Of a stretch of 29,493 bases of DNA, positions 26,298 through 29,493 are shown piece after piece; the first letter of the stretch is position 1; every line of letters begins with the position of its first letter. The stretch covers positions 1 through 29,493 of the IMG/VR virus record IMGVR_UViG_3300028592_000061; one strand, written 5' to 3'. The DNA is from a virus. The position numbers and the translations under genes were made by a program. The notes beneath the pieces were generated by a model. It was not told the DNA's origin. It did no database searches and saw only the letters and a program-made list of their open reading frames with translations.

Positions 26298-27308
26298 TTA
26301 GTTGTTTAAGGTTATACTGTCTATTGATTTAAATATCTGTAATGCTACTTGTGGCACTATTGCATTTCCTCCGGCTTGTATAGATTCGTTTCTCCACTTT
26401 GAAAAGGCAATTCCGTCCAGTCTTTCGGAAAACCCATCATTTCCATTACAAACAGGGGAGACAGTTGGGAAGTCTTGCCAGTCTGAGCAAAGAAATCTGG
26501 AAGGCTGTTGCTCTGATTCCTTCCCGCTTTCTCCAACGCTTCTTTTGTTCTCGCTCCTTTGTAATCCCTTGTTGTTGTTGGTAGAAGAATCTTTGAATAT
26601 TCCGGCCTCTTGCTGCTGTGATATTTTGCCTGTTCGAAGTCTTGATATGTTACCATGCTGTTGGTTGGAGTTGGCAGCATCCCCATCCATAATAAATTCT
26701 GAAGTCCTTTCTGAACTACTCTCCCTGTCTCCTTCTGATAGAATCTCTGATTTGAATGTGCTGGTGTTTTGCCCTCTTTGTCCACTACTTCTATATGCTT
26801 CCATCCTGGTTCTTGCAATGTTGGAGTAGGCAACAATCCATATTCTGTATCTTTCATGGGGAGCCCCGACACCCGCAGCTGGAAGTAAAACCGGTTGTAC
26901 TTCGTACCCTTCAGCTTCCAATTCAGCCTGCACCTCTTCGAAGACCAGCCCGTCTGACCAATTAACAAGCCCGCGAACGTTTTCGCCCACGATCCAGGTC
27001 GGTTGAATTTCTCGAACTGCTCTAAGCATTTCCGGCCAGAGGTGACGGTCATCTTCTGTTCCCTGTCGCTTTCCTGCAACTGAATAGGGCTGGCATGGGA
27101 ACCCTCCTGTGAGTATGTCAATCTTTCCTCTGTGAATAGTGAAGTCTGTTGTCCGTATGTCTGAGTAACTGATTGCATTAGGCCAGTAGTATTTTAAAAT
27201 CGTTTGATTAAATTCTTTGAATTCACAATGAAACACGTTCTCCCATCCCATCCACTGAGCCGCGAGATCAAACCCTCCAATTCCTGAAAATAAACTTCCG
27301 TGTCTCAT
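26298..27308 (-). CDS. C5 cytosine DNA methyltransferase
   Basis: A 336-residue enzyme that methylates cytosine at carbon 5, probably to protect phage DNA from host restriction. Motif I SLFSGIGGFDLAA (residues 5-17) binds SAM, motif IV GGFPCQPYS carries catalytic Cys72, motif VI is GENV (Glu109), motif VIII is HERYRIWIV (residues 151-159), and motif X is GNAIVPQVALQIF near residue 320. The part between VIII and X, where the target-recognition domain should be, is hydrophilic and low in complexity (rich in S, N, E, Q, R), which is odd. It overlaps a second long reading frame for 274 codons (see 26357-27178). No partner restriction enzyme is seen in the window. Confidence 0.93.
   Translation of the reverse strand: MRHGSLFSGIGGFDLAAQWMGWENVFHCEFKEFNQTILKYYWPNAISYSDIRTTDFTIHRGKIDILTGGFPCQPYSVAGKRQGTEDDRHLWPEMLRAVREIQPTWIVGENVRGLVNWSDGLVFEEVQAELEAEGYEVQPVLLPAAGVGAPHERYRIWIVAYSNIARTRMEAYRSSGQRGQNTSTFKSEILSEGDRESSSERTSEFIMDGDAANSNQQHGNISRLRTGKISQQQEAGIFKDSSTNNNKGLQRSENKRSVGESGKESEQQPSRFLCSDWQDFPTVSPVCNGNDGFSERLDGIAFSKWRNESIQAGGNAIVPQVALQIFKSIDSITLNN
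26357..27178 (-). CDS. Nested reading frame in the methyltransferase gene
   Basis: A 273-residue open frame wholly inside the methyltransferase gene, in the +1 frame. It reads as protein, not noise: TSGRKCLEQFEKFNRPGSWA, then KTFAGLLIGQTGWSSKRCRL, NWKLKGTKYNRFYFQLRVS, three LLPTPT / MLPTPT / LLPTTT elements, and an end with SPLFVMEMMGFPKDWTELPF. The PTP...D and L.P.(F/W)V..(L/M)MGFP..WT.L patterns match a widespread phage family that I recall encoded alone or next to C5 methyltransferases. Its start has no clear Shine-Dalgarno. Function unknown; a role with the methyltransferase is a guess. Translation is unproven. Confidence 0.6.
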   Translation of the reverse strand: MQSVTQTYGQQTSLFTEERLTYSQEGSHASPIQLQESDREQKMTVTSGRKCLEQFEKFNRPGSWAKTFAGLLIGQTGWSSKRCRLNWKLKGTKYNRFYFQLRVSGLPMKDTEYGLLPTPTLQEPGWKHIEVVDKEGKTPAHSNQRFYQKETGRVVQKGLQNLLWMGMLPTPTNSMVTYQDFEQAKYHSSKRPEYSKILLPTTTRDYKGARTKEALEKAGRNQSNSLPDFFAQTGKTSQLSPLFVMEMMGFPKDWTELPFQSGETNLYKPEEMQ

Positions 27309-27846: not shown

Positions 27847-27963
27847 TGGAGTAGCCTGGACTTGAACCAGGAGTTGACTGTATTTTATCGATTACGAATC
27901 GCTTATTAACCCAGTCTGTAGTTTATGAAACTAATTAGCGTCTACCAATTCCGCCACATCTCC
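27847..27963 (-). tRNA. Oversized tRNA-like gene 1 (class II, Leu-type D arm)
   Basis: 117 bases. Minus-strand reading: acceptor GGAGATG with CTACTCC (two mismatches, at pairs 5 and 6), D arm GCG GAATTGGTAGA CGC as in tRNA-Leu, and T arm CCTGG TTCAAGT CCAGG, perfect. The best anticodon hairpin is TTAGT TTCATAA ACTAC, which would give CAU with U33, odd for a Leu-type body. The variable arm is about 46 bases, with stems GACTG/CAGTC and CGATT/AATCG. No CCA is encoded. It may be functional, decayed, or not a tRNA in the strict sense. Confidence 0.55.
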
Positions 27964-28469: not shown

Positions 28470-29493
28470 TTACTCCTGATACAGTTGCTTAAATCGTGAC
28501 AATCCGTAAGCATTTGTTTTCTCAAGAAGCGGAACAAGATCTCTTGCTTTCATAGGCTTCAACTCAACTGTTTTATCATTTTCAACTTTAAATGCAATAT
28601 TATTTCTTTCCAAAAAATCACGCACTCCTAAATCACAGGCCCCTGTTACCGTTCTATAGTGATTAACTGTAATCTCTGTTTCTGGCGTGATTGGAGAATT
28701 CCTTAACCTATCTGCTACTATCTTGAATTGTAGATCTCCTATGGCCGACTTAACAGTGCTTCCGTGTGCGAAAAAACCATCTTTTTTGGCCACAAAACAC
28801 TCCTGTTTATTAATCTCCCCCTCTTCAATATCAACGAAATTATACCCTGTAAGAATTTTAATCCCCTTTGAAGTGTTTTCTCTTTTAACTACAAAACAAT
28901 ATCCGTCTACATTTATTACTGAAAGTTTATTTTTGCCAATGTGTAATCTTTCCATAGCAGCATTGTAGCTGAAACAATAAGAGCCACACTGAGCCAGCAC
29001 AGGAAGGTTAACTTCTGTCATAGCACCATTGGAGCTGAAGCAATCAGAGCCACACTGAGCTAATACAGGAAGATTAACTTCTGTCATAGCATCATTGTAG
29101 CGGAAGCAATAAGAGCCACACTGAGCTAATACAGGAAGATTAACTTCTGTCATAGCACCATTGGAGCTGAAGCAATCAGAGCCACACTGAGCTAATACAG
29201 GAAGATTAACTTCTGTCATAGCAGCATTGTAGCGGAAACAATCAGAGCCACACTGAGCCAGCACAGGAAGGTTAACTTCTGTCATAGCATCATTGTAGCG
29301 GAAGCAATCAGAGCCACACTGAGCTAATACAGGAAGATTAACTTCTGTCATAGCACCATTGTAGCTGAAGCAATCAGAGCCACACTGAGCTAATACAGGA
29401 AGATTAACTTCTGTCATAGCATCATTGTAGCGGAAGCAATAAGAGCCACACTGAGCTAATACAGGAAGATTAACTTCTGTCATAGCACCATTG
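28470..29493 (-). CDS. BspA-type leucine-rich repeat protein (partial)
   Basis: At least 341 residues; the reading frame is still open at the right window edge, so the start is missing. The N-terminal part seen is eight and a bit copies of a 22-residue LRR_5-like repeat (MTEVNLPVLAQCGSDCFRYN plus two residues). The variation is confined to positions 15, 18, 19 and 21. After a short cap (MERLHIGKNKLSVINVDGYC) comes a non-repeat C-terminal domain (KREN, KILTGYNFVDIEEGEINKQE, TVTGACDLGVRDFLERNN). BspA-like repeats usually form surface or adhesion ladders, but no signal peptide can be judged here. It lies 4 bases from tRNA-like gene 2. Confidence 0.85.
   Translation of the reverse strand, partial: NGAMTEVNLPVLAQCGSYCFRYNDAMTEVNLPVLAQCGSDCFSYNGAMTEVNLPVLAQCGSDCFRYNDAMTEVNLPVLAQCGSDCFRYNAAMTEVNLPVLAQCGSDCFSSNGAMTEVNLPVLAQCGSYCFRYNDAMTEVNLPVLAQCGSDCFSSNGAMTEVNLPVLAQCGSYCFSYNAAMERLHIGKNKLSVINVDGYCFVVKRENTSKGIKILTGYNFVDIEEGEINKQECFVAKKDGFFAHGSTVKSAIGDLQFKIVADRLRNSPITPETEITVNHYRTVTGACDLGVRDFLERNNIAFKVENDKTVELKPMKARDLVPLLEKTNAYGLSRFKQLYQE
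28956..29493. repeat. Tandem array of 66-bp repeats
   Basis: Eight complete 66-base units end at 29483, with a ninth cut by the window edge. Units differ mainly in a short block (cattg[tg]agc[gt]g region and ca[ag]taagag/caatcagag), and two units (near 28996-29020 and 29260-29284) share the variant cagcacaggaaggtt in place of taatacaggaagatt. Such near identity suggests recent expansion or gene conversion. It is entirely coding (LRR protein). Confidence 0.9.

Follow-up and report, generated by a model that had tools for sequence, protein, structure and literature searches.

The methyltransferase locus of the window (the whole stretch of 29,493 nucleotides analysed here, a tailed-phage contig with terminase, portal, head and tail genes) probably encodes, with a probability of about 0.8 from sequence comparison, a two-subunit phage C5-cytosine methyltransferase in which the specificity subunit would be nested in the gene of the catalytic subunit. 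The outer methyltransferase frame is named alpha and the nested +1 frame is named beta. The nested frame is real and under selection, and alpha and beta are very probably parts of a single enzyme. A preliminary description of this DNA had suggested that target recognition may be supplied by the second protein, and this is the best explanation of the results below.

Reading frames of the locus

The nested ORF had an ATG start and 273 codons without a single stop at an offset of +1, and was located wholly within the 336-aa C5 methyltransferase ORF on the minus strand, where it spanned Cys72 and all of the sequence up to alpha motif X (Table 1). These features agreed with the preliminary description, which had reported a stop-free +1 frame over the Cys72 motif and the recognition region, with three LPT(P/T)T elements and SPLFVMEMMGFPKDWTEL in the places where they were found again here. 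When the synonymous codons of alpha were permuted, the nested span acquired a mean of 8.4 stops and was open in none of 20,000 permutations, and resampling of codons from the window's own usage left the nested frame open at a P of about 1e-4. The converse test, with the beta protein fixed, gave an expectation of 19 stops in the alpha frame and likewise 0 of 20,000 resamplings were open. For 17 other genes of the window, the longest +1 runs were 28-95 codons. Family searches with an antisense ORF (26302-26829, plus strand) gave zero matches.

Two further features were observed in the window. A 66-bp tandem repeat in eight copies (92% match) was present at the contig end (28953-29493) and encoded MTEVNLPVLAQCGSxCFxxNxA units at the start of ORF 28470-29483. 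In addition, an Rfam tRNA match of 31.7 bits was found at 27847-27963 (minus strand), which at 117 bases was unusually long, and ARAGORN identified no tRNA there.

Table 1. Features of the alpha and beta frames, in window positions.
Feature	Position	Strand	Basis
Alpha, catalytic subunit, C5-cytosine methyltransferase ORF, 336 aa	26298..27308	-	PF00145, TIGR00675, phrog_363, model
Alpha motif I SLFSGIGGFDLA	27261..27296	-	Conserved in alpha alignment (52 sequences)
Alpha motif IV GGFPCQP with catalytic Cys72	27087..27107	-	Invariant in alpha alignment
Alpha motif VI GENVRG	26970..26987	-	Sequence and alpha alignment
Alpha motif VIII APHERYRIWIV	26832..26864	-	Sequence and alpha alignment
Alpha motif X GGNAIVPQ	26349..26372	-	G/N/A/V columns invariant in alpha alignment
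Alpha residues 182-274, predicted disordered, neutral, merely stop-free	26487..26765	-	pLDDT about 30; dN/dS 1.37 [1.04-2.00]
Beta, nested ORF, 273 aa, proposed target-recognition and motif IX subunit	26357..27178	-	phrog_1008, dN/dS, 160 loci
Beta N-terminal conserved domain (SGRKCLEQFEKF...YFQL)	26876..27040	-	Invariant columns; nested dN/dS 0.30-0.43 over most
Beta cassette 1 (LLPTPTLQEPGW...)	26681..26836	-	Unique among 432 cassettes
Beta cassette 2 (MLPTPTNSMVTYQDF...)	26588..26680	-	Type common to L008, L085, L087
Beta cassette 3 (LLPTTTRDYKGART...)	26462..26587	-	Commonest type, 23 loci
Beta motif-IX-like SPLFVMEMMGFPKDWTEL	26408..26461	-	Invariant S/L/P/F/MMGFP/W columns; weak alignment to Dcm LTPRECARLMGFE
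Candidate beta start ATG	27176..27178	-	Window ATG at -71 from GGFPC codon
Alternative candidate beta start TTG after AGAGGA	27119..27121	-	In 70/81 loci; position -14

The alpha frame

Database searches of both translations, proposed in the preliminary description, assigned alpha to PF00145 (E 4.3e-46), TIGR00675 (E 7.3e-42) and phrog_363 (E 1.6e-70), and beta to phrog_1008. Motifs I, IV (PCQ), VI (ENV), VIII and X of C5 methyltransferases were all present in alpha in the expected order, and these five motifs were kept across 52 aligned sequences. Alpha showed no motif IX in the stretch from motif VIII to motif X, nor was a folded target-recognition domain found in this chain, the region being predicted disordered with a dN/dS of 1.37. 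The AlphaFold model of alpha showed a confident large domain with M.HhaI as the best structural match (E 1.6e-12, 165 columns). The low complexity of the methyltransferase frame opposite the nested recognition region, already remarked on in the preliminary description, was evident as a stretch rich in S, R, E, G, Q and N with 22% hydrophobic residues compared to 44% in residues 1-160.

The beta frame

The match of beta to phrog_1008, a family labelled as DNA methyltransferase, had an E of 5.7e-17 and aligned protein residues 16-261 to profile positions 34-285. No Pfam or NCBIfam model covered beta, a PDB profile search with beta as query gave no significant match, and neither an HNH nor another known domain was found in it; no HNH was found in 54 relatives either. 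The N-terminal domain (SGRKCLEQF...YFQL) was doubly constrained together with alpha motifs VI-VIII. The motif-IX-like segment had the consensus LSPxFVMEMMGFPxDWT, of which S, L, P, F, MMGFP and W were invariant in 55 sequences, and a beta profile compared with the single-chain E. coli Dcm aligned motif IX in the right place at a non-significant E of 0.058. Modelled alone with AlphaFold, beta gave a poor model (pLDDT 55), which would be compatible with a domain needing a partner and proves nothing.

Of 81 loci, 63 had a start codon for the nested frame at -56 and 15 had one at -59, counted from the GGFPC codon, which is 12-15 nt downstream of the candidate ATG of the window. Among the 81 anchored viral loci, only in L082 was the nested frame interrupted well within its length, by a stop at +148 on the same count, representing either a sequencing error or a dead copy.

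Distribution and annotation of the family

A tblastn search with beta matched 71 phage records, and pattern scans showed relatives at 320 IMG/VR loci and 107 GTDB loci, the latter mostly from Bacteroidota. Loci picked by beta similarity were fetched (80 from IMG/VR and 80 from GTDB), and in all 160 the beta relative overlapped a methyltransferase frame, always at the same +1 offset, with a few of the alphas broken by frameshifts or in-frame stops. The same overlap was present in distant relatives, namely N15 (E. coli), SEN4 (Salmonella), BcepC6B (Burkholderia), PHB09 (Bordetella), Haboob (Pseudomonas), PhiXhv-28 (Xanthomonas), ABMM1 (Acinetobacter) and Tadhana (Paenibacillus). The real overprinting proposed in the preliminary description is supported by phrog_1008 membership, by the same register in 160 loci and by the two-frame dN/dS given below. 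Its statement that the family is usually encoded as a separate ORF near C5 methyltransferases was not borne out, since no free-standing beta homologue was found. Every relative checked, including N15 and the Paenibacillus, Acinetobacter, mycobacterio- and arthrobacterio-phages, had a full, partial or end-to-end overlap with a C5 methyltransferase frame. Rctr197k_201 was considered as a lone beta and rejected because an unannotated PF00145 frame overlaps it.

Both genes were annotated by the depositors in Tadhana (gp54 and the nested gp55) and in PhiXhv-28. The annotation of N15 contains the outer gene alone. In Rctr197k (KX853510.1, 169574-170059; L224/L226), the beta-like gene alone was annotated, as a conserved hypothetical, and the PF00145 frame was missed.

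Six Bacteroides loci (L140, L144, L147, L148, L150 and L151) had an intact beta and an alpha that was broken, before the terminal stop, solely by TGA. These TGA codons were mostly at conserved Trp positions (AAE-W-MGW, FSR-W-RQ), and the neighbouring genes were open in the standard code. Either these alphas are decaying, or translation of the alpha gene decodes TGA as Trp. If beta works solely with alpha, an interrupted alpha beside an open beta at these six loci is unexplained.

Selection in the two frames

Two-frame dN/dS was obtained from 25 disjoint sequence pairs by a simple pairwise count and not by a full codon model. Beta showed a dN/dS of 0.44 [0.37-0.51] in the first part of the overlap and 0.15 [0.11-0.20] over the cassettes, while the nested register outside beta showed 0.81 [0.67-1.04] upstream and 0.67 [0.24-1.70] downstream. 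The alpha dN/dS rose from 0.08 upstream of beta to 0.16 over the first part of the overlap and 1.37 [1.04-2.00] over the cassettes, and fell to 0.05 downstream of beta. In a finer count, selection on beta set in at around -45 nt relative to the GGFPC codon, with a beta dN/dS of 0.45 at -45..0, relaxation over motif IV and 0.30-0.43 at +90..+225 nt. Variation between close relatives was greatest at the alpha third position until ~300 nt past the GGFPC codon, at the alpha first position (equal to the beta third) from ~300 to ~600 nt, and then at the alpha third position again.

Overall, these counts show that constraint passes in relay, with the alpha frame constrained over motifs I-VIII and X and the beta frame between them. 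The codon-level test in both frames, another check suggested in the preliminary description, gave 0.15 for beta where alpha had 1.37. The view expressed there that one DNA segment serves two conserved proteins stands in so far as both frames are selected, but does not extend to the recognition stretch, where alpha is neutral and merely open.

Partial-overlap relatives

In the mycobacteriophages Wizard007 and Smooch, the arthrobacteriophage ArV1 and the loci L182, L196, L199 and L201, alpha ended right after motif VIII. A second ORF in the same seven loci, open from within alpha, contained cassettes, motif IX and motif X in a single chain, as in ArV1 (RLSPRFVEWMMG...LKALGNGVVPQQAVAAI). The window-type beta profile matched these second ORFs with an E of 4.9e-36. 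Against phrog_116, a single-chain methyltransferase profile, the tandem betas matched at about 424-494 and the window alpha at 208-374. The partial-overlap chains and the phrog_116 positions indicate that the nested frame corresponds to the recognition-domain and motif IX part of the enzyme, and the comparison shows that motif X falls in either frame depending on the gene architecture. A natural in-frame fusion was also observed in a Paenibacillus prophage (L185, 2311-3078), with alpha motifs I-VIII, one cassette and motif IX and no motif X.

Cassettes of the nested protein

A total of 432 cassettes were cut from 150 nested proteins and grouped into types at 60% identity. The cassettes start with (L/M)LPTP, have a median length of 43 aa and number 1-6 per protein, and they comprised 154 types in 118 distinct architectures. 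A given cassette type could recur at differing positions, with as many as 16 different neighbours, and shuffling of the cassettes between phages is evident. The type of cassette 3 of the window was invariably the last before motif IX. Every cassette also has to remain stop-free in the alpha frame. From sequence, we infer that the cassettes are recognition elements with one DNA specificity each. Neither this shuffled array nor the parallel with M.EcoHK31I described below had been noticed in the preliminary description.

Proposed enzyme and alternative explanations

In the proposed enzyme, alpha would form the large catalytic domain, with S-adenosylmethionine binding, catalysis at Cys72 and the C-terminal motif X helix, and its stretch between motifs VIII and X would be a mere flexible linker without stops. 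Beta, separately initiated from the +1 frame, would form the small domain on the DNA major groove and would be composed of an alpha-binding N-terminal part, 1-6 interchangeable (L/M)LPTP target-recognition cassettes and motif IX. The two chains would associate into an active methyltransferase, and phage DNA methylated at one site type per cassette may be shielded from host restriction. A wider reading, towards which the results lean slightly, is that such loci are widespread split multispecific C5 methyltransferases with a recombining cassette library in an overlapping frame of the catalytic gene. If so, selection on each cassette would act in both frames, for reading DNA in one of them and for a linker free of stops in the other, and neither subunit could be inherited separately.

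The explanation that the nested frame is a chance ORF, with its similarity a by-product of methyltransferase conservation, draws on the constant co-occurrence of the two frames, and for that reason homology alone cannot separate them. A chance open frame was nevertheless excluded by the synonymous permutations, none of which was open in 20,000, by a nested dN/dS well under 1 in precisely the stretch where alpha lacks constraint, and by homologues that persist where the alpha frame closes downstream of motif VIII. It is improbable, though clearly less so than a chance ORF, that +1 ribosomal frameshifting from alpha near motif VIII yields a single fused enzyme and that beta is not a separate protein. 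The register is always +1, the partial-overlap alphas end just past motif VIII where a shift would restore the complete motif order, and the Paenibacillus prophage fusion joins alpha in frame to a cassette and motif IX, all of which frameshifting would accommodate. It is disfavoured because beta is under purifying selection well upstream of motif VIII, in sequence that the fusion would leave unused; in addition, the start codons are conserved at -56/-59 and a shifted chain in nested-type loci would be without motif X.

Somewhat less probable again is that beta is overprinted but has another job (anti-restriction, regulatory or homing) and that alpha works alone. Unrelated overprinted proteins do occur in phage methylase genes, the ShiLan element with its HNH in another frame being one example (PMC11855218), and the lack of a Pfam match for beta would fit such a role. 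However, the missing motif IX of alpha and its neutral recognition region, which is also predicted disordered, disfavour this explanation, the tandem-locus homologues of beta carry motif X in the same chain, and beta is without HNH or another known domain.

Comparison with known systems

By analogy, M.EcoHK31I appears to be the nearest described enzyme. Lee, Kam and Shaw reportedly found in 1995 that its beta gene is nested in alpha in another frame; such nesting of the small-chain gene was observed in the window and is said to hold for M.EcoHK31I. M.EcoHK31I (YGGCCR) is a two-polypeptide C5 methyltransferase with motifs I-VIII and X in the large subunit and motif IX in the small one, and its predicted recognition domain was placed in the large subunit (PMC3404938). 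Judged by these features, the window locus resembles it in having motifs I-VIII and X in alpha and motif IX in the small chain (PMC3404938), but differs in that selection and cassettes place its recognition region in the small chain and not in the large subunit. In addition, M.EcoHK31I belongs to a restriction-modification system, whereas no restriction gene was noticed near the window locus. Plasmid searches with the nested frames of the window and N15 returned no record labelled EcoHK31I.

M.AquI (CYCGRG) has motifs I-VIII in alpha and the distal recognition region with motifs IX and X in beta (PMC3404938), which is the arrangement of the seven partial-overlap loci. The window differs from M.AquI in having motif X in alpha and beta wholly inside alpha. 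C5 methyltransferases split after motif VIII and before the recognition domain are known from nature and from engineering, and the natural ones reassemble (PMC5944983, PMC3404938). The proposed division between alpha and beta follows the same logic.

Bacillus temperate phages of the SPbeta and phi3T type have several target-recognition elements, in variable number, arrayed in one enzyme (PMC12707154). The window family likewise holds an array of exchangeable elements with a putative recognition role, but the SPbeta-type enzymes are single chains in one frame, whereas the window array is in a separate chain and an overlapping frame. The ShiLan element is a mobile insertion with an out-of-frame HNH endonuclease in actinophage methylases (PMC11855218) and is similar in placing a second out-of-frame protein inside a phage methylase gene. 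Unlike ShiLan, the window beta showed no HNH or other nuclease domain, and it overlies conserved motifs of the methyltransferase.

Tadhana gp54/gp55 and PhiXhv-28 have the same nested +1 layout with PHROG_1008, and both genes were deposited as DNA methyltransferases. The annotation of these pairs states no role, and the window beta is distant, with 26% identity to the Tadhana protein. A phage methyltransferase with a nested recognition subunit was not found described in the open-access literature, and a published description may have been missed.

Significance

To our knowledge, long same-strand overprinting with clear dN/dS evidence in both frames has rarely been documented in double-stranded DNA phages. 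The locus provides a testable model of shared constraint in overlapping genes, in which the frames alternate and the recombining cassettes are open in both. It also brings to light a gene overlooked in deposited annotations of classic phages, as in the gene 58 region of N15, and elsewhere, and a split enzyme of this kind would account for many phage C5 methyltransferases in which motif IX and a recognition domain seem to be missing. Were each cassette to read a single sequence, the family would amount to a large, naturally occurring collection of target-recognition elements and would help to explain broad protection against restriction.
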